This document shows, in pieces, positions 2,004 through 64,000 of a stretch of 64,000 nt of DNA (positions are counted from its first letter, which is position 1; each line of letters opens with the position of its first letter). The notes beneath the pieces were generated by a model. The model saw nothing but the letters and a program-made list of their open reading frames with translations. It had not been told where the DNA came from and ran no database searches. Source of the DNA: a virus. Where the stretch lies: positions 35,691-99,690 of the IMG/VR virus record IMGVR_UViG_3300047297_000301; one strand, 5' to 3'. The position numbers and the translations under genes are program-made.

Positions 2004-2489
2004 ATGAAATTATATATAAAAATAGACGGACAAGGTGGCACTATAGATCACCCTATGCAATTTGATTCTGCGCAAGTTACTATAAGTTTTCTATTAAACA
2101 AAGAAGCTGAATCAGTTAGCGAACAAGAAATATTAGCAAATGGTTTTGCAATTTTTGAAAATTTTCAAGTTGGTATTGCTGAGCAGATTATATCTGATAA
2201 TGGGTATAAACAATTACCAAACGGTAATTGGACTAGAAATTATGTGCTAAAAGAATTAACTCAGGAAGAAAAATTAGATAAATGGATACGCGGACGCAGA
2301 GACAAAATGCTTTTTATGAGTGATTGGTCACAGTTAACAGATAATGAATTAACTGATGCAGAACGTGCAAAATGGTTAGAGCACAGGCGGTATTTAAGAA
2401 AAATGCCAGAAATATATGCAAATATAACACATCCTGAAGAAGCTGTGTGGCCCGAACCTCCATTGCGAAAACCGTTACCCAAAGTTTAA
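2004..2489 (+). CDS. tail fibre assembly / tail assembly chaperone-like protein
   Basis: 161 residues. The C-terminal half holds the pattern RxxMLxxSDWSQL...LTxxxRAxWxxxRxxLR...P....WPEPP, characteristic of the phage tail assembly chaperone domain found in fibre assembly proteins. Such proteins help the fibre fold and trimerise and are usually encoded just after the fibre, as here. The N-terminal ~90 residues are not recognised. Confidence 0.7.
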   Translation: MKLYIKIDGQGGTIDHPMQFDSAQVTISFLLNKEAESVSEQEILANGFAIFENFQVGIAEQIISDNGYKQLPNGNWTRNYVLKELTQEEKLDKWIRGRRDKMLFMSDWSQLTDNELTDAERAKWLEHRRYLRKMPEIYANITHPEEAVWPEPPLRKPLPKV

Positions 2490-2490
2490 A

Positions 2491-3027
2491 ATGACTACAT
2501 TAAAAGAGTTAACTCATGAAATTCATGAACAAGCAGAATTCCATCCATTTACTAAACTAGTTTTATCAAAAAATATTACTAATCAGATATACGGGGATTT
2601 TTTATATAATCAGCACGCAGTATACCATACACTGGAAACAGTAGCTGGTATACGTGGATTATTAACAGACTTGCCAGGATTATGTCGAGCTGACTTAATA
2701 CGTGAAGATTTAGACGACCTAAGTATAACAACCGTCAAACTATATACTAGCACTCACAAGTATACTCACTATGTGGCATGCAATCTAACAGATGATCAAT
2801 TACTAGCGCACCTATACGTACGACATATGGGCGATATGTATGGCGGTCAAATGATTAAAAAATGTGTTCCTGGCAATGGCCGTATGTATAAGTTTGAAAA
2901 TCGCAAAGAATTAATTCAAGCTTTGCGAAACAAATTAGATACCTCAATGGCTTCTGAAGCCATTCATTGTTTTGGTTATGCTATTCAACTATTTACAGAG
3001 TTAGCCAATGAGCACAATATTCAGTAA
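2491..3027 (+). CDS. ho: heme oxygenase (biliverdin-producing)
   Basis: 178 residues. Family knowledge: heme oxygenase opens heme to biliverdin, releasing CO and ferrous iron, with electrons from ferredoxin or another reductase. Seen here: the N-terminal helix LKELTHEIHEQAEFHPF places His12 where the proximal heme ligand lies, and residues 107-120 (HLYVRHMGDMYGGQ) match the family signature HxYxRYLGDLSGGQ, including the catalytic Asp (Asp115) and the flexible Gly-Gly. It is shorter than cyanobacterial HO1 (~240 residues). The stop lies 20 bases inside the next gene, a bilin reductase, so the two are probably translated together as one pathway. It sits just after tail-fibre genes, not beside photosynthesis genes. 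Confidence 0.88.
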   Translation: MTTLKELTHEIHEQAEFHPFTKLVLSKNITNQIYGDFLYNQHAVYHTLETVAGIRGLLTDLPGLCRADLIREDLDDLSITTVKLYTSTHKYTHYVACNLTDDQLLAHLYVRHMGDMYGGQMIKKCVPGNGRMYKFENRKELIQALRNKLDTSMASEAIHCFGYAIQLFTELANEHNIQ

Positions 3028-3694
3028 ACTAAAAGCTCATGCAGCGGAATTGGAAACAATTCTTGCTGCACGAGCTTTTCCTTTGCCAACAGAGTACGAT
3101 TCTGGTTGGTACACTAAGAATTTTTCTAGTGCTTGGATCCGACGTGGTAACTTAGATGTTATTGACGTGTCAGAATCCAAAAAACTTTATATGATGCACT
3201 TGTGTATATTCCCGCACGTTTACGATGCAGCCCCTATTTACGGCTTTGACATTGTAGCAGGAACAAATAAAATCACAGGAGCGTTTTTAGATTTTTCACC
3301 TACAGGCGACCCTGAGCACCCAATGTGCAAATGGTTTCAAGAGTTTGTAGAACCTACTTCGTGGGCAAAACCACGAGAGCTGCCTGAATGGGCACGAAAT
3401 ATATTTTCAAACCGCATGGTTGCAGCAGGTAATATTAATACTGATTTTGAACTTGCAGTTATACTAGAGATTTCAAAGAAGTCGTTAATTTACTACTTGG
3501 ACAGTATATCAAAATATCGTCCAGCACTAAAATACGAAGATATGGTAGCACAACATAATTTTACTGAAAAGCAAAATTATTACTGTCAGCAACAAAAATG
3601 TAACCCACATACTCCACGAGTATTGAAAACACTAGGATTTAACGATGATCAAGTACATGAGTACATACATAAAGAACTATTTCCTGAAGTATGA
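3008..3694 (+). CDS. ferredoxin-dependent bilin reductase (PebS/PcyX/PcyA family)
   Basis: 228 residues. The core HLCIFPHVYDAAPIYGFD then IVAGTNKITGAFLDFSPTG is the diagnostic central sheet of ferredoxin-dependent bilin reductases (pattern FP...PIxGxDxV....xxDxSP). Asp95 occupies the conserved substrate-protonating Asp position. The family reduces biliverdin to phycoerythrobilin, phycocyanobilin or related bilins. Product class cannot be told by eye; viral four-electron enzymes (PebS, and PcyX from uncultured marine viruses) are the nearest precedent. The start ATG lies inside the end of the heme oxygenase gene, so substrate supply and use are coupled. No phycobiliprotein, bilin lyase or ferredoxin gene is in the window, so electrons and any acceptor protein would come from the host or from elsewhere in the phage. 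Confidence 0.85.
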   Translation: MSTIFSKLKAHAAELETILAARAFPLPTEYDSGWYTKNFSSAWIRRGNLDVIDVSESKKLYMMHLCIFPHVYDAAPIYGFDIVAGTNKITGAFLDFSPTGDPEHPMCKWFQEFVEPTSWAKPRELPEWARNIFSNRMVAAGNINTDFELAVILEISKKSLIYYLDSISKYRPALKYEDMVAQHNFTEKQNYYCQQQKCNPHTPRVLKTLGFNDDQVHEYIHKELFPEV

Positions 3695-3739
3695 ACAACA
3701 ATGGATAGATTATTGGTATCATTACGGAGGACCTAAATA

Positions 3740-4156
3740 ATGTGGATACTACAATTTTTACCCAACTGGATATTTTACTTAGCATTAATAGCAGGCATAG
3801 CCGCCCTTTTAATCACACATTTTGTTAAAGTATTACCTAACGCGCAGTTAATTAAATTAGCAAGCGTTGCAGTAGTTTTGTTTAGCATTTTTATGATAGG
3901 TGCTATATCAAATAATGATGCTTGGCTAGCCAAAATCAAAGACTTAGAAGTTAAGGTTGCACAAGCAGAAGCTAAGTCAGCTGCAACAAATACTGATATT
4001 GTAGAAAAAACTGTTGTAAAAACGCAAATTGTTAAACAACGTGGTCAAGACATTGTTAAGTATGTAGACCGCGAAGTTGTTAAGTATGACACAACTTGTG
4101 TTATTCCCAAAGAATTTGTACTTGTACACAACCGTGCAGCAGAGGCACCAAAATGA
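3740..4156 (+). CDS. inner-membrane spanin-like protein (i-spanin)
   Basis: 138 residues. Two hydrophobic segments (about 9-27 and 38-56) are followed by a heptad-like Lys/Glu/Ala-rich region (about 63-110) that would lie in the periplasm. Its stop overlaps the start of a small lipoprotein by ATGA, the classical Rz/Rz1 arrangement. i-Spanin and o-spanin bridge the envelope and fuse the two membranes at the last step of lysis. Two membrane segments rather than one is a little unusual. Confidence 0.65.
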   Translation: MWILQFLPNWIFYLALIAGIAALLITHFVKVLPNAQLIKLASVAVVLFSIFMIGAISNNDAWLAKIKDLEVKVAQAEAKSAATNTDIVEKTVVKTQIVKQRGQDIVKYVDREVVKYDTTCVIPKEFVLVHNRAAEAPK

Positions 4157-4416
4157 AATTGTTAATATTATCATTAGTTTTGTTACTTAGTGCCTGCACA
4201 ACTGTTCCAGTGGTCGCAAAGTTTCCACAAGCACCAGGTGCACTAGTACAAGAGCCTTGCCCTAACTTGCAAAAACTGCAAGACGAAGCCAAATTATCAG
4301 ATGTTGCAAAAATTGTAACGGTTAATTATACCGAATACTATATGTGCGCTGTGAAATTAGAAGCCTGGCAGCGTTGGTATCGTGAACAAAAAACCATTTA
4401 TGAAAGCGTGAAGTAA
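4153..4416 (+). CDS. outer-membrane lipoprotein, o-spanin candidate
   Basis: 87 residues. The start at 4153 is chosen because it gives a textbook lipoprotein signal: MKLLILSLVLLLSAC with lipobox LLSAC, cleavage before Cys15. An upstream in-frame Met (4096) would bury this signal. The gene overlaps the i-spanin stop by 4 bases and the endolysin start by TAATG. The mature part is Pro-rich near its N-terminus, then helical. Confidence 0.7.
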   Translation: MKLLILSLVLLLSACTTVPVVAKFPQAPGALVQEPCPNLQKLQDEAKLSDVAKIVTVNYTEYYMCAVKLEAWQRWYREQKTIYESVK

Positions 4417-5030
4417 TGGAATTAACACTTGCTCAACTAAAACAAATTGTTGATAAAAATCCACATATAGAGTACTGGCATCGTGCATTAGTACAACTAT
4501 TACCAGAATACGAAATTAACACTCCACAACGCATGGCAGCTTTTTTAGCGCAATGCGCACACGAGTCAGGCGGGTTTCGTGCAATCAAAGAAAACTTAAA
4601 CTATCGTGCAGTTACGCTCAGGAAGATTTTTGGCAAATACTTTCCCACTGATGAAATGGCTCAACAATATGCAAACAAACCAGAAAAAATTGCTAACTTA
4701 GTTTATGCTAATAGGATGGGTAATGGCGGACCTGAAACAGGCGATGGCTATCGTTATTCGGGTCGTGGACTGATTCAGCTAACTGGCAAAGACAATTACT
4801 TTTGGTTTGCCGCTTCAATAAACTTAACAGCTGAAGCTGCTAGTGAATATATGGAAACCTTTGAAGGTGCAGCACAATCGGCGTGCTGGTTCTGGGAAAC
4901 AAACAACTTAAATCAGTGGGCAGATAAAGACGATATCTTAACACTAACTAAACGTATCAATGGCGGTACTATTGGCCTAGAAGATCGTATAAAACATTAT
5001 GAACATGCCAAGCATGTACTAGGAGCCTAA
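4416..5030 (+). CDS. endolysin, glycoside hydrolase family 19 (chitinase-like muramidase)
   Basis: 204 residues. The motifs AHESGGF (catalytic Glu50), RMGN...GYRYSGRGLIQLTGKDNY and the Trp-rich C-terminal segment SACWFWETNNLNQWAD are those of phage GH19 endolysins that cut peptidoglycan glycan strands. There is no signal peptide, so release through a holin is expected. It lies directly behind the spanin pair and completes the lysis cassette. Confidence 0.9.
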   Translation: MELTLAQLKQIVDKNPHIEYWHRALVQLLPEYEINTPQRMAAFLAQCAHESGGFRAIKENLNYRAVTLRKIFGKYFPTDEMAQQYANKPEKIANLVYANRMGNGGPETGDGYRYSGRGLIQLTGKDNYFWFAASINLTAEAASEYMETFEGAAQSACWFWETNNLNQWADKDDILTLTKRINGGTIGLEDRIKHYEHAKHVLGA

Positions 5031-5033
5031 GCG

Positions 5034-5171
5034 GTGCTTGCCGCTTGGTTAGTTTCATTAACATTAAGTTATGCCAAACCTGAAGAATATGAATGTGTTA
5101 GGTGGGCATGGACTGGAGACGTATATAATCGAAAAGTAATTTGTTTAGAATGGCGTAAAAAACGCCGATAG
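5034..5171 (+). CDS. small conserved-looking membrane-anchored protein
   Basis: 45 residues from a GTG start, placed between endolysin and the next gene. A short hydrophobic N-terminus (about residues 2-13) is followed by YECVRWAWTGDVYNRKVICL and a basic tail WRKKRR. Gene packing (3 bases after the endolysin stop, next RBS directly behind) supports it as real. The function is unknown. Confidence 0.5.
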   Translation: MLAAWLVSLTLSYAKPEEYECVRWAWTGDVYNRKVICLEWRKKRR

Positions 5172-5180
5172 GGGGTAAGT

Positions 5181-5678
5181 ATGATAGATCCAATGACCGC
5201 ACTAGCGGGGATACAAACGGCCATTTCTATGGTTAAAAAAGCCAGCGCAGTTGCTAACGATTTAGGGTCGTTAGCACCAATGATTGGCAAAATGTTTGAT
5301 GCTAAAAGCACGGCAACTAAAGCTTTAATGGAAGCAAAGAAGTCTGGCAAAGGCAACAACATGGGCACTGCCTTACAAATTGAGATGGCCCTAGAACAAG
5401 CCAGAGCATTTGAAGAAGAACTAAAAATGTTGTTTATGCAAACAGGCAAAATTGATGTTTGGAACAAGATTAAAGCACGTCAGGCTGAAATGGATGCCAA
5501 TGATGCTAATGAACTAAGACTTTTTAATGCTCAAGAACGAGCACGTAAACAAAAAGAAGAAGAATTAAACGAATGGGCTATGATACTTGGTGGAGCTGCT
5601 TTTGTTTTATTTATAATGTTTATTGGCGGATACGAACTAATGCAATACTGCCAAACAGGTAATAGGTGTGGCCGATGA
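5181..5678 (+). CDS. C-terminally membrane-anchored helical protein
   Basis: 165 residues: a hydrophobic or amphipathic N-terminus, a long charged helical middle (about 85-130), then one strong transmembrane segment (about 134-152) and a short Cys-containing tail. An RBS (GGGGG) precedes the ATG. The stop overlaps the next start (ATGA). It sits in the lysis region. Family not recognised. Confidence 0.6.
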   Translation: MIDPMTALAGIQTAISMVKKASAVANDLGSLAPMIGKMFDAKSTATKALMEAKKSGKGNNMGTALQIEMALEQARAFEEELKMLFMQTGKIDVWNKIKARQAEMDANDANELRLFNAQERARKQKEEELNEWAMILGGAAFVLFIMFIGGYELMQYCQTGNRCGR

Positions 5679-8511: not shown

Positions 8512-8549
8512 AAAAAAGCCCCTATAGAGCAATCTATAGGGGCTTTTTT
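8512..8549. terminator. bidirectional intrinsic terminator
   Basis: 12-bp perfect stem AGCCCCTATAGA / TCTATAGGGGCT with GCAA loop, A-run before and T-run after, between convergent genes. An identical hairpin occurs at 11991-12018. Confidence 0.9.
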
Positions 8550-8986
8550 CATTCTTGCAATGTCGAGTATAATTTCCAACCGTGTTCACGGTGTTCTTCT
8601 ATACGTTCACTTAAAAATGCACATAAGTCTGGCATTTTATACATTTCAGCTAATTGATATGCTGTTAGTAGTGTTTCATGTACTTTGACGTTATCTATAT
8701 ACAATGTGCGTACCATCTCTTTTGGAGGAAGAATTTCTAGTGTATCTTGTATATCGGACATTTCTTTTAAGTGTTGAAAACTTGCATGCACATAAATGTT
8801 TTGACCACGTAAAGTTTCAGCAAAGTCGTCTAACTCGTCTTGAACTTCGTCGTATATATCTCCAAACAACTTATGGTACTGTACAAAGTTAACACCAGTT
8901 ACATTCCAGTGAAAGTTTTCTGCTTTTACTAAAAACGCATAGGTTGTTGCAAAAGCCCGTTTAAGGGCCATGTGTAGTTCTTCCAT
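8549..8986 (-). CDS. dps: Dps-like ferritin (DNA-binding/iron-storing mini-ferritin)
   Basis: 145 residues. The Dps inter-subunit ferroxidase site is complete: His26 (NFHWNVTG), His38, Asp53 and Glu57 with canonical spacing. Dps dodecamers oxidise and store ferrous iron and protect DNA from Fenton damage. There is no long basic N-terminal DNA-binding tail. First in the leftward block after the bidirectional terminator, near virion-type genes. Iron freed by the phage heme oxygenase would be one substrate; that link is inference. Confidence 0.85.
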   Translation of the reverse strand: MEELHMALKRAFATTYAFLVKAENFHWNVTGVNFVQYHKLFGDIYDEVQDELDDFAETLRGQNIYVHASFQHLKEMSDIQDTLEILPPKEMVRTLYIDNVKVHETLLTAYQLAEMYKMPDLCAFLSERIEEHREHGWKLYSTLQE

Positions 8987-12934: not shown

Positions 12935-14899
12935 TTACCTAATTGGGCAGGCTCCTGTAGCACAATCTTCGCCCATAATTTCATCAAAACTATTGGCATT
13001 TTCTAGCGATACTGGAGTAAGTTGTTGCACATAATTTCGGAATGTGTGCTCATCCACAACTTCTTGTGGTAAGTACAAATATCCTAAATCTTTTGCTGTT
13101 TTAGTTGGATCGGTGCGGTAGATGAATGAAACACCTACATAACAATCCCAGTTGTCTAACAACCAATCAATGATTGCTGGAACTTCTGTAGGATCATAAC
13201 TAATTGTTACTGAAGTATTTTGCTGCGTCCAACTGGTCTGAATTAATTTATATTTTTCGAGTTGTTCGATTGCTGTGTCAAGGTTAACTTCTTTTCCATT
13301 AGTTTTGTGGAAAGGTACATCAATCCACTCAACAGGGAATGTAATAAGTACACCACTATCATCAGTGGGGTGATTAACAACGTTATAATTAGCATCGCGC
13401 AGTACTTCAACAATAGGGTCAAATTTACTAAATTGAACATTATTAAATATATACTTTCCTAGAGGCTTATGAATTCCTTCTGTGGTATCCATAATTTTGG
13501 ATAGCGTTCCTGAAGGTTTAACACAAGTAATATTTTTAGGACTAGGTAAATCAAGTTCTTGAGCCATACCAATAGCAGCACCAGTTGCAGTACGCTTTAG
13601 ATACTCATAGTCATAACCATTCATATCAGGGCGTTTAGCAATACCTGTTAAACCAACTCCGCATAATCGCATAAAATAGTTGTTTAAATGCCAGGACTCT
13701 TGTAAAATACCGTCTTGTAAGTTTACACAAGTTTGGCGATAGTTAGCGCGAGCTGCAAGCCTAATGGCGTTGTGAAGTCCGGCGGTATCGCCTTTAAATT
13801 TAGCAATGTCTGTTTCGGTAAGATTACAAAATGATTTATTACCGAGTAAGATTTCCACGCAAGGGTTTGCACCTTTGAACCATGGAGCGCGACGGAGAGC
13901 TTCAACTTCATTGATAAATCCTGGTTCTGATCCACCAGCTTCTAGCATTAGATCAAAAATCTTTTGCAAGTCAGCTTTTAAGGGTTTTTCTTTAAATACT
14001 AGTGAATTGTTTGATTGTTGACGATGTGAATTGTTATACAACCACCAATCTTTCTTTGCTACGGCAAATTCTTCCCATTCGGGTTGCCCATAATCAAACA
14101 AAGCAATTTCTGCACTACGGCGGCTGCTAAGAATAGTGCCAAGATGATTAATAATGTCGAGAATATCCATCCTAGTAAGTAAACTATCAGCACGGCCATT
14201 GAGGATGTTTGCAATAGCCACATATGCAGTTGATATAGCGCTATCGCCACTTGAGATCCATCCATAGCCTTTTAACCTTTCCCCAGCAGGGCGTAACTGA
14301 CTAAAGTCGAGTACGAGAGTATCAGCAGCGTACTTACCAGCAATAAGCTTACCGATAGATTTTGCCCAGGCTTCCGCAGAATCCCCAACTTGAATAGTCC
14401 AAGTCTTAGTTTCTTGATCAAATGTTTCAACATTATGCTCCAATCCACCTTTAGCTGTACGGGTCGATCTTACTACTCGAATATTTTTAATTGGCTTTGA
14501 AAAGCCATTTAGTGTACCAACAATTGGTTTAAATCCTACTCCGCATCCTTGTAGTAAAAGCCATAAGCAGTCTACTACATCATATACAGTTTCTACGTGT
14601 GTAAATGAGCAGTTAAATTGTGAAGCCTCGCGAGTTTTAGCTACATCTGTACCGCCTAACCATAATGTACGACCACTCATGGCAACTTTACGATCCAGCA
14701 TTAGCTGTTCAAGATCATACAGTTCTCCGTATTCTACATCTGTTAGATCACGTTTAGCTGCACGTTGCCACAGCCATTCTTGGTGATCAATAACTCGGGC
14801 TACTGTTTCTTGCCACGTTTCAAATTGTTTTCCGTCGTCTGAAGTGGGCCTATTATATGTACGACGTGTTATTACTTGTGCTCTAGTGCTTACTGCCAT
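12935..14899 (-). CDS. nrdJ: ribonucleoside-triphosphate reductase, adenosylcobalamin-dependent (class II)
   Basis: 654 residues from the ATG at 14899, preceded by RBS AAAGGAAATC; an earlier in-frame Met lies in the dUTPase gene. Class II hallmarks: SGRTLWLGGTDVAK, FNCSF (first redox Cys), LLQGCGVGFKP, NPCVEILLGNKSFCNLTE (active-site Cys region) and a C-terminal Cys pair CATGACPIR. It makes dNTPs from NTPs using B12, independent of oxygen. Reductant is probably the phage glutaredoxin (19123) or host thioredoxin. The operon also carries dUTPase. Confidence 0.88.
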   Translation of the reverse strand: MAVSTRAQVITRRTYNRPTSDDGKQFETWQETVARVIDHQEWLWQRAAKRDLTDVEYGELYDLEQLMLDRKVAMSGRTLWLGGTDVAKTREASQFNCSFTHVETVYDVVDCLWLLLQGCGVGFKPIVGTLNGFSKPIKNIRVVRSTRTAKGGLEHNVETFDQETKTWTIQVGDSAEAWAKSIGKLIAGKYAADTLVLDFSQLRPAGERLKGYGWISSGDSAISTAYVAIANILNGRADSLLTRMDILDIINHLGTILSSRRSAEIALFDYGQPEWEEFAVAKKDWWLYNNSHRQQSNNSLVFKEKPLKADLQKIFDLMLEAGGSEPGFINEVEALRRAPWFKGANPCVEILLGNKSFCNLTETDIAKFKGDTAGLHNAIRLAARANYRQTCVNLQDGILQESWHLNNYFMRLCGVGLTGIAKRPDMNGYDYEYLKRTATGAAIGMAQELDLPSPKNITCVKPSGTLSKIMDTTEGIHKPLGKYIFNNVQFSKFDPIVEVLRDANYNVVNHPTDDSGVLITFPVEWIDVPFHKTNGKEVNLDTAIEQLEKYKLIQTSWTQQNTSVTISYDPTEVPAIIDWLLDNWDCYVGVSFIYRTDPTKTAKDLGYLYLPQEVVDEHTFRNYVQQLTPVSLENANSFDEIMGEDCATGACPIR

Positions 14900-14907
14900 G
14901 ATTTCCT

Positions 14908-15384
14908 TTATGTTCCTGTTGAACCGAAGCCTCCTGTGCCTCGGGTAGAGTCGTTCCAAATATCTTTAAAGCCTACTAGTTCAACCTTCTGAATAACCAA
15001 CTGAGCAATTCTATCACCAGCCGTAATTTTATAAGGGTCATCACCGATATTTTTTAACAAAACTTTAATTGTGTCACGATAACCACTATCTATCACGCCT
15101 ACGCTGTGAGGGATAGTAATTCCCTTTTTTCCTTGAGAGCTTCTATTATACACAAAGCCTGCAAAGCCTTGTGAAATTTTAATTGCTATACCCGTATCAA
15201 CAAGTTTTTGCTCATTTGGATAAATTTCCAAACTTTCGTACGCAAATAAATCTGCTCCAGCATCGCTATGATGTGCACGTTCAGGAAGTTTAGCTCCTGG
15301 CTTTAACATACATTCTAATACTGAACCGTATGTCATAGTATTTGCATTATAAGCGCCTGCTGTAATAAGTGTTGTTCCGTTCAT
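14908..15384 (-). CDS. dut: dUTPase
   Basis: 158 residues. The five trimeric-dUTPase motifs are visible: DAGADL, NRSSQGKKG (variant of PRSG..), GVIDSGYRDTIKV, GDRIAQLVI and the C-terminal RGTGGFGSTG that closes over the substrate. It hydrolyses dUTP to dUMP, feeding ThyX and keeping uracil out of DNA. The start overlaps the upstream exonuclease stop (ATGA). Confidence 0.92.
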   Translation of the reverse strand: MNGTTLITAGAYNANTMTYGSVLECMLKPGAKLPERAHHSDAGADLFAYESLEIYPNEQKLVDTGIAIKISQGFAGFVYNRSSQGKKGITIPHSVGVIDSGYRDTIKVLLKNIGDDPYKITAGDRIAQLVIQKVELVGFKDIWNDSTRGTGGFGSTGT

Positions 15385-28194: not shown

Positions 28195-28941
28195 TTAAGC
28201 AGCAGCTTTGGCTTCTGCTTTGGCTTTCTTAGCAGCACCATCATAGTCAGCAACTTTGATGCCACGACGTGTCAACAATGTACGAAGACCACGTTCTGTT
28301 TTGTCAACAGCTTTAGCAATGTCAGCAACAGTCATACCAGTAATGCGATCACCTAAAGCGGTAACAGGATCAACTGTCTCTTTTGCATGAGAAACACGCT
28401 GTGCGGGAATCTTAGCAATTTGACCTTTGCGTGTCAGACTCAAAGCCTTACCACGGACAGAAGCAACTGTCTTGTTCAATGCACTAGCGATATCTTCGAT
28501 GAAGCTACCTGCATCAGCCATAGCGATAAACTTAGCTTCTTCAGCTTCAGTATATGTACGAGCCACTTCAACTTTTTCAGCAGGCTTAACAGAACCTGTC
28601 AATTCCAAAGCCAAGAGTTTACCTTGAATTTGTTTTGCGGAAAAAGAGCCACCAGCAAATGCTTCGGCGATTTCTTTGTAAGTCAGATTACCAGCGTTGT
28701 TAACAACGAAGTCTGACAAGTCAGCGCTTTGTTCAGGTGTAAATGCGCTAGTCTTTTCTTTAGCCATAGAAGCTACTTCAAAATCCATTTGACGGAGTTT
28801 AGAAGCAACAGAACGAGTTGTGAAACCAAGGGCTTCAGCGGCTTGTTCAACAGTGTTAACGCTAACGGGGGATTGTCCACCAACCATGTTGGTTAATTGA
28901 GCAACGGCTTCGTCAGACCACTTTTTTGTTTTTTCAGTCAT
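28195..28941 (-). CDS. tandem helix-turn-helix DNA-binding protein
   Basis: 248 residues that read as four successive small HTH-like units, each with an Ala/Ile-rich helix then [ST]-x-[RK]-[SG]-[VL]-x-x-[KR]-L: EAAEALGFTTRSVASKLRQM, IAEAFAG...AKQIQGKLLAL, IASALNKTVASVRGKALSL and IAKAVDKTERGLRTLLTRRG. It ends in a Lys/Ala-rich basic tail. Units resemble the single-HTH family at 50741, 52421, 53251 and 57033. Probably a DNA-binding regulator or nucleoid protein; own terminator. Confidence 0.65.
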   Translation of the reverse strand: MTEKTKKWSDEAVAQLTNMVGGQSPVSVNTVEQAAEALGFTTRSVASKLRQMDFEVASMAKEKTSAFTPEQSADLSDFVVNNAGNLTYKEIAEAFAGGSFSAKQIQGKLLALELTGSVKPAEKVEVARTYTEAEEAKFIAMADAGSFIEDIASALNKTVASVRGKALSLTRKGQIAKIPAQRVSHAKETVDPVTALGDRITGMTVADIAKAVDKTERGLRTLLTRRGIKVADYDGAAKKAKAEAKAAA

Positions 28942-29695
28942 TTTTTATTTCTTTCAAGAAATTATTTAAGTTTGTGATAATTGTAATACCGAGAGACTCG
29001 GCTTTTTTGCGTTTTGAACTACCTTTATCTTCTTCATCAACTAAATAATCTGTGGCTTTCGTCACAGACTCTACTGGTGTGTAGCCTGCCTCTTCTAATG
29101 CTTTGTAGGCTTCTGCTTTAGTTTTATAAGAAGATAATTTTCCTGTGATACAAATAGTTTTTTGATTAGTATTTGTACTGGAATTCTTTTGAGATTTAAA
29201 CGAGAAAGGCAAAAACTCTCTCATCTCTTGGAAATCAGTTTCAAGCCAAGCAACTAAGTTTTGTGTAACTTTGTCGCCAAGTCCAGCTTGCTTGCAAGTA
29301 GTGTAACTGATCTCGTCTACAGATGTAACTACTTCACACAATTTCTTACTTGCGGTCGAACCAACTAATGGAATAGAAAAACTTGCAATAACTGTTGCTA
29401 GGTCAGCAGATTTACTGCGTTCAATTTCGTCTAACAGTTTTAGTGCTACTTTTTCACTTCCGAGTGATTCAACAACTTGTTCTGAATCAAGATAAAACAA
29501 TTCAGTAATATCTGACAAGCCAAGTTTTTCAACTGTGCGAGAACCCATACCTTTAATACCAAGAGTCTTACAGAAGTGTTCGACCTTTTTATTTAACTGA
29601 GCACCACAAGCCGTGTTTCTACAAAAGAGCTGATCGTTGACCAGTTCTAAAGGATAATTACAGCAGGGGCATTCGGTTGGTATTTCGATTCTCAT
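28934..29695 (-). CDS. NAD+-dependent DNA ligase, C-terminal subunit (Zn finger, HhH, BRCT)
   Basis: 253 residues corresponding only to the back half of bacterial LigA: four-Cys zinc finger (CPCC...FCRNTACG), helix-hairpin-helix repeats (IKGMGSRTVEKLG), and a C-terminal BRCT domain (ICITGKLSSYKTKAEAYKAL). The adenylation half is the separate gene 29782-30738. The 86-bp gap between them holds a promoter, so this is a true split, not a simple frameshift. T5-like phages also have two-subunit NAD ligases. Confidence 0.88.
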   Translation of the reverse strand: MRIEIPTECPCCNYPLELVNDQLFCRNTACGAQLNKKVEHFCKTLGIKGMGSRTVEKLGLSDITELFYLDSEQVVESLGSEKVALKLLDEIERSKSADLATVIASFSIPLVGSTASKKLCEVVTSVDEISYTTCKQAGLGDKVTQNLVAWLETDFQEMREFLPFSFKSQKNSSTNTNQKTICITGKLSSYKTKAEAYKALEEAGYTPVESVTKATDYLVDEEDKGSSKRKKAESLGITIITNLNNFLKEIKND

Positions 29696-29781: not shown

Positions 29782-30738
29782 TTAAGCATCTACTTTGTGT
29801 AGTATGCAAGGGATAATTTCACCCGATCTAATTATGGCTACGGTGTCTCCTATTTGGAGATCCAGCATTTCAATAAAACCAGGATTATTAAGAGTAGCCC
29901 TACTGACTAGAGCATCACCAATATAAACAGGCTCAAGAATAGCAACTGGAGTAACCTTACCACTTTTGCCAACTTGCCATTCAACATCAAGGAGTTTTGT
30001 TTCAACATGAGCCTGTCGTTCTTTTTTAGCATATGCACCACGGGGATGTTTGCTAGTATACCCTAAGTCTTGGAATACTTGTGTGTCGTTTACACGAAAC
30101 ACAACACCATCGCAAGGGTATACTTTGTCTAAGTCAGGCTCACTGATTACATTGAAACCATACTGTTTTAATATGTTCAGCTCTGCTCGATACGTTGTTG
30201 TAATACTAGGCTGAGCACCATATGCAAAGAAACTTACTGCACGGGTACTAAACTCTGTTGAATCTTTTAAGTTAAGAGAACCTGCTGCATAATTACGAGC
30301 ATTTTCAATATAACTTGGAGCAACAATCTCACCAGTAACTTGATAGATTCCTGTTAGTGGAATTGTGTGCGGTACTAAACCAGTATGACTAAGAATCTTG
30401 TCAGTAATAATTTGACCTTCAACACCATCACCACGAGTTAACGCACGTACAAGGTTGCCATCCACATACAATAAGCTAATAGCAGCACCATCGAGCTTGG
30501 CAGTAGTAACAATATCGCTGATACCATCCAAAGGACGCTTTTGATTTTCATCTTCATAATACTTTTGCAGTGAATACATTTGATAAACATGACGCTCGAC
30601 ATTGCCGTGTTGCTTAGCACCTATGGCATTATATCCGATAGACTCTGCAAGTCTATCGAACTGGTCGTCAGTAATGATCGGAGCACCACTATAGTAGGCT
30701 CGTGAAGCTAGATTTAAATATTGTTCAAGTTTGTTCAT
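29782..30738 (-). CDS. NAD+-dependent DNA ligase, adenylation/OB subunit
   Basis: 318 residues covering the nucleotidyltransferase and OB domains of LigA. AMP-accepting Lys81 lies in TTAKLDGAAISLLY (KxDG); other motifs: TRGDGVEGQ, VTGEIV, DGVVFRVN, WQVGKSGKVTPVA and the OB segment GDTVAIIRSGEIIP. It lacks zinc, HhH and BRCT parts, supplied by 28934-29695. The pair should form the functional ligase. Confidence 0.9.
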   Translation of the reverse strand: MNKLEQYLNLASRAYYSGAPIITDDQFDRLAESIGYNAIGAKQHGNVERHVYQMYSLQKYYEDENQKRPLDGISDIVTTAKLDGAAISLLYVDGNLVRALTRGDGVEGQIITDKILSHTGLVPHTIPLTGIYQVTGEIVAPSYIENARNYAAGSLNLKDSTEFSTRAVSFFAYGAQPSITTTYRAELNILKQYGFNVISEPDLDKVYPCDGVVFRVNDTQVFQDLGYTSKHPRGAYAKKERQAHVETKLLDVEWQVGKSGKVTPVAILEPVYIGDALVSRATLNNPGFIEMLDLQIGDTVAIIRSGEIIPCILHKVDA

Positions 30739-35170: not shown

Positions 35171-35710
35171 TTAATTTGTTGTAACAGTATTAAATACTAT
35201 TACTGTTTTTCTATTATCACTAATATTTAGTGGTGACCTATGCCATAATATTGAAGGCATAGTAAGTATTGATCCTTCATAAATGTCTGGTATCAGTATT
35301 GAATTGTCTTCATTTAATATTTCGGTTTTAGTATCGTTATTAGGTAGTTCTAGATAATATATATTAGTCCAATTTACTTCACCATGAATATGCCAGGTAT
35401 GGTAGTCATTTTTATAATATTGCTGAAACCATGAATTATGGTACTTGAATTCAGTAATATTTAATTTCTTATAAACCTTAGACATAGTTTTTGTTAAACT
35501 AGGCTCTAATATTGACCAGTACTTTCTTGCAATATGTCTTGGTAAGTTCCAATCAGTTTTAGATATTACTTCACTACCATTATTATTTTGGTGACTATTA
35601 GGCATTTTGTCGATACTGTCTAATAAAGAACCTTTAATACTGCTGTGCTGTTCAAATCTAGTAACAGCATAAGGGCAATAAATATAACTAACTTTAATGT
35701 CTTCTATCAT
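35171..35710 (-). CDS. 2OG-Fe(II) oxygenase-like protein
   Basis: 179 residues. The double-stranded beta-helix pattern YHTWHIHGEVNWTNIYYLEL ... EGSILTMPSILWHRSP ... RKTVIVFN gives the facial metal site (H-x-H/E plus distal His) and the 2-oxoglutarate-binding Arg. Such genes are frequent in aquatic phages, substrates mostly unknown. A second, distant member is at 40709. Confidence 0.7.
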   Translation of the reverse strand: MIEDIKVSYIYCPYAVTRFEQHSSIKGSLLDSIDKMPNSHQNNNGSEVISKTDWNLPRHIARKYWSILEPSLTKTMSKVYKKLNITEFKYHNSWFQQYYKNDYHTWHIHGEVNWTNIYYLELPNNDTKTEILNEDNSILIPDIYEGSILTMPSILWHRSPLNISDNRKTVIVFNTVTTN

Positions 35711-40708: not shown

Positions 40709-41332
40709 CTATACTTTAAAAGGTATATAGTGATATAAATGCAAGTCATACATGTGCCTATTTTCATTAGGATTTGCTGATTTTATCGGTAAAATATCAA
40801 ATGCTAATGTAATACGAGGCTTTTCGCCTTGCCACTCTGTGCTAGAGTGTCTGTCGTCATCACTTTTTCCTGCTACTAATAGTCCATTAACACTAGGAAC
40901 TTCAACAATTCCTTCAATTCCTGGTATTTTATAGTTAGTAGCGCTTTCATTTTCCCCTACATTAACACAATAAAACCCGTGCCAAACTTTATATTCGGGA
41001 GCCCAATGTGCGTGCCATTTAACTTTATCGCCTTTGCGAAAAACATTCATCCAGCTTTTTAATACATAAGGCGTATCTTTGTCTAGCAGTGGTGAAATAT
41101 TTTTTACCATTTCGTGGTAAAGTTGATTTAGTTCTTTTACTGGAAAAGTAAATAAATTGTATTCTTGATTTTTAGCACTTGTAAGGTTACCGTGCCAACC
41201 TTTTTCAGTTGGAGAAGTAGTCTTAATAATTATATCTTCTATAACTAAACATTTATTAAAAAGTGCTTCATTATCAATGTTATCTAATTGAAATCCATAT
41301 AGATAGTTATCTACTATCGTTTGCATTTGCAT
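40709..41332 (-). CDS. 2OG-Fe(II) oxygenase-like protein
   Basis: 207 residues. SWMNVFRKGDKVKWHAHWAP and HGFYCVNVG, then a strand GLLVAGKSDDDRHSSTEWQG and PRITLAFDI, follow the phage 2OG-Fe(II) oxygenase pattern (H-x-H/D, distal His, Arg). Divergent from the 35171 copy. Substrate unknown. Confidence 0.6.
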   Translation of the reverse strand: MQMQTIVDNYLYGFQLDNIDNEALFNKCLVIEDIIIKTTSPTEKGWHGNLTSAKNQEYNLFTFPVKELNQLYHEMVKNISPLLDKDTPYVLKSWMNVFRKGDKVKWHAHWAPEYKVWHGFYCVNVGENESATNYKIPGIEGIVEVPSVNGLLVAGKSDDDRHSSTEWQGEKPRITLAFDILPIKSANPNENRHMYDLHLYHYIPFKV

Positions 41333-59799: not shown

Positions 59800-60426
59800 A
59801 TGTTAGAAACAATTTGTGAAGTAATAACAGATGCTTATAAGCGCAACTGGATTACAAGTCGAGACGGCAACGCCTCAATACGTCACCAAGATCGTGACCA
59901 CTTTTACGTTACGCCTACGGGAACACGTAAACAGACCTTACAGCCTGATCAGTTTAAAAAGATGGGTCTTAGATCCACTGGCTACGGTTTATACGCAACC
60001 CCACTAAAGTATACAGACATTAGCGAAAATTTAAAGCCTTCAGGCGAGTTGCCAATGCACTTTGGACTTCAGCAGAAGATTGATACTGAAGTCAGAGTAA
60101 TTTTACACTTTCACCCAACATATACTGTAGCCGCAATGTATGCAGGTATTCAACTACCTGAACTCTTAAAAGAATTCCCAGAACTCAGCCGATATACTAG
60201 TGTAGCACCAAATGTTCCGATGCTGCCACCTATATCACAAGAACTAGCAGATTCTTGTATTAATGCACTAGGCTACAACAAAACTAGTGGTAGCGTTGAG
60301 TACAACATAGTAGGAATGGACAGACACGGAGTAATTGCTGTTGACACATCACCTTGGCGTGCTTATGAACATATTGAGCGACTAGAACACATCTGCAAGA
60401 TTGTACTTGCCTCAGGAAAATATTAA
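59800..60426 (+). CDS. class II aldolase/adducin-like protein
   Basis: 208 residues. SRDGNASIR, YVTPTG, KPSGELPMHFGLQ and VILHFHPTYTVAAM match the class II aldolase family (fuculose/ribulose-phosphate aldolases), including the zinc-binding HxH and catalytic Glu regions. Placed between TerS and TerL, so co-expressed with packaging genes; metabolic or structural role unknown. Confidence 0.75.
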   Translation: MLETICEVITDAYKRNWITSRDGNASIRHQDRDHFYVTPTGTRKQTLQPDQFKKMGLRSTGYGLYATPLKYTDISENLKPSGELPMHFGLQQKIDTEVRVILHFHPTYTVAAMYAGIQLPELLKEFPELSRYTSVAPNVPMLPPISQELADSCINALGYNKTSGSVEYNIVGMDRHGVIAVDTSPWRAYEHIERLEHICKIVLASGKY

Positions 60427-63456: not shown

Positions 63457-64000
63457 ATGGTAGATAAAAATAAAGTGCTGTATGTAAACAGTTCTTTTAC
63501 TAAGAGTGAACCTACTACCACAGACGAAAGCGTTGAAATGTTAACCATCAAAGGTTATGCTTCAACTACTGACGTTGATAGACAGGGCGACATTGTTCCT
63601 GTAAGCGTTTGGGAAAAAGGTATTCAAAATTATTTGAAAAATCCAGTAATTTTGGCATACCATAATCACAGCGCTCCTATCGGTAGAATGGTAGAACACA
63701 AAGTTGACGAAAGAGGACTGCTTGTAAAAGCAAGAATTTCTTCTGCAGCTGGTGATGTTTATAAACTTGTAAAAGACGGCGTATTAACAGCTTTTAGTAT
63801 CGGATTTCGCATTGTAGATGCGGAGTACAATTCAGCTGCAGAGCTGTTTGTGGTAAAGGAGTTGGAACTGCACGAAATTTCAGTAGTGTCAGTACCCGCA
63901 AATCAAAACACATTATTTAGTCTCTCTAAGTCGTTTGAAAACGACGAAGAATTTAAATCTTTCAAAATGCAGTTTGCACCCAAAAGCGAATCAGCTAAAG
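63457..64000 (+). CDS. prohead protease (HK97 type), 3' end cut by window edge
   Basis: First ~181 residues are visible with no stop before the edge. IKGYASTTDVDRQGDIVPVS, LAYHNHSAPIGRM (catalytic His), VLTAFSIGFRIVDAEYNS (catalytic Ser) and LHEISVVSVPANQNT are hallmark segments of the S78/U35 prohead protease family. It matures the capsid; the major capsid protein is expected next, outside the window. Confidence 0.9.
   Translation, partial: MVDKNKVLYVNSSFTKSEPTTTDESVEMLTIKGYASTTDVDRQGDIVPVSVWEKGIQNYLKNPVILAYHNHSAPIGRMVEHKVDERGLLVKARISSAAGDVYKLVKDGVLTAFSIGFRIVDAEYNSAAELFVVKELELHEISVVSVPANQNTLFSLSKSFENDEEFKSFKMQFAPKSESAK

Follow-up and report, generated by a model that had tools for sequence, protein, structure and literature searches.

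The phycoerythrobilin (PEB) synthase PcyX_EBK42635 (PDB 5owg), a ferredoxin-dependent bilin reductase (FDBR) from an uncultured marine phage, is phage-borne and paired with the heme oxygenase (HO) gene hemO (PMC11480375). Such hemO-pcyX pairs have been published for marine and freshwater phages of non-cyanobacterial hosts, along with a freshwater phage hemO-pcyA pair, and the contigs carrying hemO-pcyA/X clustered with myophages by gp13 (PMC11480375). For CB_2, which represents the hemO-pcyA/X-valaS cassettes (Wegner et al. 2024, PMC11480375), the conversion of heme to biliverdin IX-alpha by vHemO was demonstrated, and the formation of PCB by the phage reductase was explained by the absence of Asp55, a PcyX-specific catalytic residue (PMC11480375). 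The residue Glu76 of PcyA is absent from PcyX (PMC10151467). An isolate with a hemO-FDBR pair is Pelagibacter phage Mosig EXVC030M (MT647606), and cyanophages such as P-SSM2 and P-SSM4 carry pebS or pcyA. That heme-to-bilin genes co-occur in phages whose hosts are not cyanobacteria was called enigmatic (PMC11480375), and the role of PcyX and of these genes there is an acknowledged open question.

The pair analysed here was located in a window of 64,000 nucleotides from a viral record of 99,690 bp (Table 1). Its reductase fell into the same FDBR clade as PcyX_EBK42635 and had the same Asp/His/Asp active site, but the two proteins were distant, the N-terminus of the window FDBR was shorter, and an Asn occupied the position of PcyA His74. 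The backbone was T5-like, not T4-like or pelagimyophage as in the PcyX phages, and the insertion site was different. Mosig contained the same two genes in the same order, also overlapping, with 2OG oxygenase genes nearby, and it infects a non-cyanobacterial host; however, it is a myophage in which the pair adjoins neck genes and lies downstream of a ferrochelatase-like gene, and its proteins were 44.7% (FDBR) and 38.8% (HO) identical to those of the window. The hemO-pcyA/X-valaS cassettes also place heme-to-bilin genes in phages that are not expected to feed phycobilisomes, but no match to the AlaS family (TIGR01821) was found in the window's record or in 35 related records, many of them fragments, with positive controls. 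The CB_2 reductase, a PcyA without the PcyX Asp, differed as well. The cyanophage PebS and PcyA belong to the same protein superfamily but to different FDBR clades, and their hosts are cyanobacteria.

The first-pass annotation had pointed to the pair in a phage without photosynthesis genes. The occurrence was borne out, whereas its novelty was overrated, given the published pairs (PMC11480375) and the Mosig isolate. A search of open-access papers found none that described it in T5-like phages, and what appears to be new is the T5-like lineage, the lack of alaS, the nearby phage Dps and the exchange of His for Asn at position 74 of PcyA. In all probability the two enzymes form a functional auxiliary metabolic cassette, which a T5-like siphophage carries in its late region as exchangeable cargo and which would lead from heme to biliverdin and on to the expected PEB.

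Table 1. Features of the hemO-FDBR locus and the Dps-like gene (window coordinates)
Feature	Position	Strand	Basis
Tail-fibre assembly chaperone-like gene, left neighbour	2004..2489	+	PF16778 3.3e-10; phrog_4912 tail fiber assembly
hemO, heme oxygenase, 178 aa	2491..3027	+	Pfam, PDB sequence matches, AF2/Foldseek, conserved residues, dN/dS
hemO 3' end / FDBR start overlap, 20 nt	3008..3027	+	sequence
PcyX-type ferredoxin-dependent bilin reductase (FDBR), 228 aa	3008..3694	+	Pfam, phmmer, tree, AF2/Foldseek, dN/dS
Rz-like (inner) spanin-like membrane protein, right border of slot	3740..4156	+	phrog_2536 Rz-like spanin 6.5e-6
Outer spanin-like lipoprotein; true start probably ATG at 4153	4096..4416	+	phrog_456, phrog_812 Rz-like spanin
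Endolysin (GH19-like)	4416..5030	+	phrog_181 endolysin 3.9e-76
Dps/ferritin-like protein, complete ferroxidase ligands	8549..8986	-	PF00210 1.5e-14; H-12-H-15-D-4-E spacing

Families and active sites of the two enzymes

HMM searches assigned both proteins, above the Pfam cut-offs, to the families that the first-pass annotation had named from motifs. The hemO frame matched PF01126 with 58.5 bits (1.1e-15; cut-off 23), and a PDB sequence search with its product matched HO-2/HmuO. AlphaFold (AF2) models of both proteins were built from alignments of viral relatives. The hemO model (pLDDT 95) had the all-helical HO fold, and the best 50 Foldseek matches in the PDB were heme oxygenases only, with TM scores of 0.77-0.85 by query. 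The proximal His12 and the distal helix G114-D115-x-x-G118-G119, which read GDMYGG as annotated, were both in place and were conserved among the relatives; His12 was kept in 70 of 71 and Asp115 in all 71. The window hemO is predicted to convert heme to biliverdin IX-alpha.

The reductase frame matched PF05996 with 67.8 bits (1.5e-18; cut-off 31) and contained the annotated PIYGFD and LDFSP motifs. Its AF2 model (pLDDT 90) had the alpha/beta/alpha fold of the FDBR family, and Foldseek against the PDB retrieved PcyA, PcyX, PebB, PebA, HY2-type and PebS structures, with distant fold relatives of the RCCR/CPOX (coproporphyrinogen oxidase) type at the tail. The best PDB match by phmmer was PcyX_EBK42635 with 178 bits, compared with at most 47 bits for PcyA. 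A maximum-likelihood tree was built from cyanobacterial PcyA, cyanobacterial PebA and PebB (two neighbouring FDBR paralogues, named by adjacency), cyanophage PcyA, P-SSM2 PebS, Mosig, PcyX and the viral relatives. With the nearest sister of the PcyX clade (alpha-proteobacterial PcyA and CB_2 PcyA) left out, the tree placed the 228-residue window FDBR inside a viral/PcyX clade of 33 rows that included PcyX and Mosig, with support of 100/100, and this clade was separate from PcyA, PebA, PebB and PebS. The PcyX-like class suggested in the first-pass annotation was thereby supported.

An alignment with PcyA showed that residues D50, H64, D81 and N48 of the window FDBR were equivalent to Glu76, His88, Asp105 and His74, respectively. 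The equivalents of His88 and Asp105 were invariant, and the Glu76 column contained Asp in 33/33 viral/PcyX rows and Glu in 18/18 PcyA rows. This column probably corresponds to PcyX Asp55, if the numbering of the crystallised construct is offset by 8 residues, as was assumed in reading the alignment. A PCB-forming PcyA identity was rejected, with the catalytic Glu76 missing and the NCBIfam PcyA equivalog reaching 88 bits where its cut-off demands 206. By its sequence the window reductase belongs to the PcyX clade, which appeared to be restricted to phages. PcyX-conserved peptides gave 46 pattern matches but no relatives in 84,980 bacterial/archaeal species genomes, and a search of plasmids for PcyX-type genes returned no match. 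Broader peptide patterns in the same genomes recovered FDBRs only from cyanobacteria-titled records, plus one Chloroflexaceae and one Bifidobacterium MAG (as labelled).

Because the tree, the best PDB match and the PcyX-type Asp all place the reductase in the PcyX clade, PEB is its expected product. Assignment of a product by clade can fail, since the reductase of the CB_2 phage relative proved to be a PcyA that forms PCB and not a PcyX, although the CB_2 enzyme lacks the PcyX Asp (PMC11480375). The residue that could make the window enzyme deviate is N48 (window 3149-3151). All nine members of the inner T5-like clade, to which the window protein belongs, had Asn here, whereas His was found in the 24/24 other viral/PcyX rows and in 18/18 PcyA rows; in PcyA, His74 and the catalytic His88 share a key water (PMC9800206). 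The exchange might turn the enzyme to PCB, as in PcyA, or stop it at a two-electron product. Such an outcome is unlikely in our judgement, as every member carried the PcyX Asp in place of the Glu76 that is critical to PcyA. The route from heme to bilin is well supported by homology, from which we also infer catalysis, product identity and regiochemistry of the window enzymes.

Gene linkage, selection and the insertion slot

The coordinates of the two frames reproduced the 20-base overlap of the first-pass annotation, which suggests translational coupling. A single-protein IMG/VR search yielded 76 FDBR relatives of 43-99% identity, and an HO gene was located upstream on the same strand at 74 of the 76 loci; at the other two (L027 and L042), the contig ended there. 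Among 71 measurable pairs, the genes overlapped by 20 nt in 38 and by 17 nt in 18, and were separated by a gap in 6. Values of dN/dS against the window (Nei-Gojobori) were 0.06-0.16 for hemO and 0.04-0.10 for the FDBR, which indicates strong purifying selection on the two genes. With 76 relatives, dN/dS of 0.04-0.16 and an overlap of 17 or 20 nt in 56/71 pairs, the pair is not a chance finding. A chimeric assembly or decayed genes, which might be suspected of a pair read from one metagenomic record only, can be given practically no weight; the frames were intact and dN/dS was well below 1. This artefact was refuted by the same arrangement in the independent contigs L006-L008, and in L004 and L005 with another HO allele.

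The distances of the HO and FDBR proteins were correlated (r=0.74; 0/999 permutations as high), and in the T5-like clade the HO had diverged more, with a mean amino acid distance of 0.38 versus 0.16 for the FDBR. When the window was compared with L004, L005 and L009, identity changed abruptly near position 3000, from 63-79% in HO to >90% in FDBR. This change was read as recombination at the gene junction, in which the left side, with HO and tail-fibre genes, was probably swapped.

As annotated earlier, the pair was located between fibre and lysis genes, with a tail-fibre assembly gene on the left and two spanin-like genes and an endolysin on the right. Relatives shared the inner spanin-like gene as the right border whether or not they carried the cassette. 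In the 13 closest lysis-locus relatives, whose endolysins were 86-95% identical to that of the window, the slot was occupied by hemO-FDBR in four, by a gene for a 348-aa glycosyltransferase in seven and by neither in two. Because the content of the slot varies among these relatives, the pair is, on sequence evidence, optional late-region cargo of a T5-like lineage. The pair was present elsewhere in the record in three of the seven glycosyltransferase-slot records (L012, L018 and L024). The alternative occupant was a beta-1,4-glycosyltransferase-like gene (phrog_13126), found at 4274-5320 in both L274 and L277, at 4414-5460 in L278, and in L279-L282. In other lineages the pair was found beside head-tail adaptor genes (L038 and L067) or, in L060, in the vicinity of a different type of portal gene. 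In L045, from another phage lineage, hemO-FDBR was adjoined by sugar-nucleotide genes (3518-5481, -) for a bifunctional heptose kinase/adenylyltransferase-like protein and an NAD-dependent epimerase.

The T5-like genome and the possible roles of the cassette

The source record contained an exact repeat of 105 bp at both ends (window 63896-64000 and record start) and therefore probably represents a complete genome of 99,690 bp. Its TerL and DNA polymerase were 49.7% and 48.9% identical to those of Vibrio phages, and its major capsid protein was 30% identical to that of Klebsiella phages (Enterobacteriaceae); these best relatives are phages that we take to be T5-like. By terminase, polymerase and capsid, the record is a T5-like siphophage genome, probably related to Demerecviridae, and its terminase recurred in five other cassette carriers with 67-99% identity. 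The pair is not a peculiarity of pelagimyophages, because it was found in this second, unrelated lineage, strongly selected, in a swappable slot and with a phage Dps. Since the T5-like backbone is well studied, it could offer a tractable system for work on the cassette. An NAD-dependent DNA ligase was apparently split over 28934-29695 and 29782-30738 (-), the first ORF with BRCT and HhH domains; the ligase of T5 is reportedly split over two ORFs as well. The window also encoded an adenosylcobalamin-dependent ribonucleoside-triphosphate reductase (12935-14959, -; TIGR02505, 4.5e-186) and, immediately before the terminase, a class II aldolase/adducin-like gene (59800-60426, +).

In the proposed mechanism, HemO would open host heme to biliverdin IX-alpha, freeing Fe2+ and CO, and the co-translated PcyX-type reductase would take the biliverdin and reduce it by four electrons to PEB. 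The electrons would come from host ferredoxin; no plant-type Fer2 ferredoxin was found in the 99,690-bp record (with a positive control). The benefit to the phage is speculative, as are the host targets suggested in the first-pass annotation (a bacteriophytochrome, heme/iron metabolism or pigment/redox chemistry). The most economical role would be to force the host to turn over its heme, which would free iron for use while the reductase clears the biliverdin, and/or the bilin may act on a host protein. Among the phage's own genes are those for iron-dependent 2OG oxygenases and for a Dps with a ferroxidase site.

In cyanophages, these genes keep up the supply of phycobilins, and the host of the window phage could be a phycobilisome-bearing cyanobacterium. 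PEB is a cyanobacterial light-harvesting pigment, and introduced PcyX works in Synechococcus (PMC13197396). Such a host is nevertheless quite improbable. The terminase, polymerase and capsid were closest to those of T5-like phages of gammaproteobacteria, the PcyX clade was distinct from cyanophage PcyA/PebS, and the sole isolate with a matching pair, Mosig, infects SAR11. The first-pass annotation had seen no photosynthesis gene, and searches of the whole record for photosystem core (Photo_RC, PF00124), phycobiliprotein (PF00502), phytochrome PHY (PF00360) and CpeT lyase (PF06206) genes agreed with this, finding none while positive controls were detected. Given the T5-like backbone and the negative searches for these genes, light-harvesting support is an unlikely role for the cassette; the host probably has no phycobilisomes. 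The leading readings of its purpose are the release of heme iron with Dps as a sink, and a bilin signal. Our tentative proposal is that T5-like phages of hosts without phycobilisomes make a reduced bilin through an Asn-for-His PcyX for ends unrelated to light harvesting, either a coupled takeover in which HemO and PcyX break down heme and the phage Dps stores the iron, or signalling by the bilin to a receptor of the host.

The bilin itself may be what is selected, bound by a host bacteriophytochrome, bilin-binding globin or other regulator so that signalling or redox protection is altered during infection. The stronger constraint on the FDBR than on HO and the near-universal pairing are consistent with this; moreover, in bacteria that are not photosynthetic, pre-PcyA enzymes have been linked to bilin-binding globins (PMC10151467), and a phytochrome can be filled by CB_2 vPcyA (PMC11480375). 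However, the PHY and phycobiliprotein searches found no acceptor in the phage, and the bacterial genome collection contained no PcyX-like gene, which leaves a selected bilin somewhat doubtful.

Alternatively, salvage of heme iron or depletion of heme may be selected, with Dps storing the iron, the reductase only pulling biliverdin off HO or detoxifying it, and the bilin as a by-product. This is a possible explanation, not the expected one, and an iron-supply role has already been raised (PMC11480375). The Dps of the same genome had the complete H-H-D-E ferroxidase set, and ferritin-like genes were present in 11 of the 27 related records searched, nine of them above cut-off (for example G001, G004, G008, G009, G012, G016 and G035). 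From this co-occurrence, the phage Dps is possibly an iron sink tied to the cassette, but Dps was absent from the records of some cassette carriers and also protects DNA independently of heme. Freeing iron needs no FDBR, and the greater conservation of the FDBR than of HO in the T5-like clade suggests that the reduced bilin itself may matter. Genes for 2OG-Fe(II) oxygenase-like proteins, which would also fit selection for iron, were found in the window (35171-35710 and 40709-41332, -; the second below the Pfam cut-off) and directly upstream of hemO in L012, L038, L068, L071 and Mosig. In G004 and G008, the ferritin-like gene was located after the terminase.
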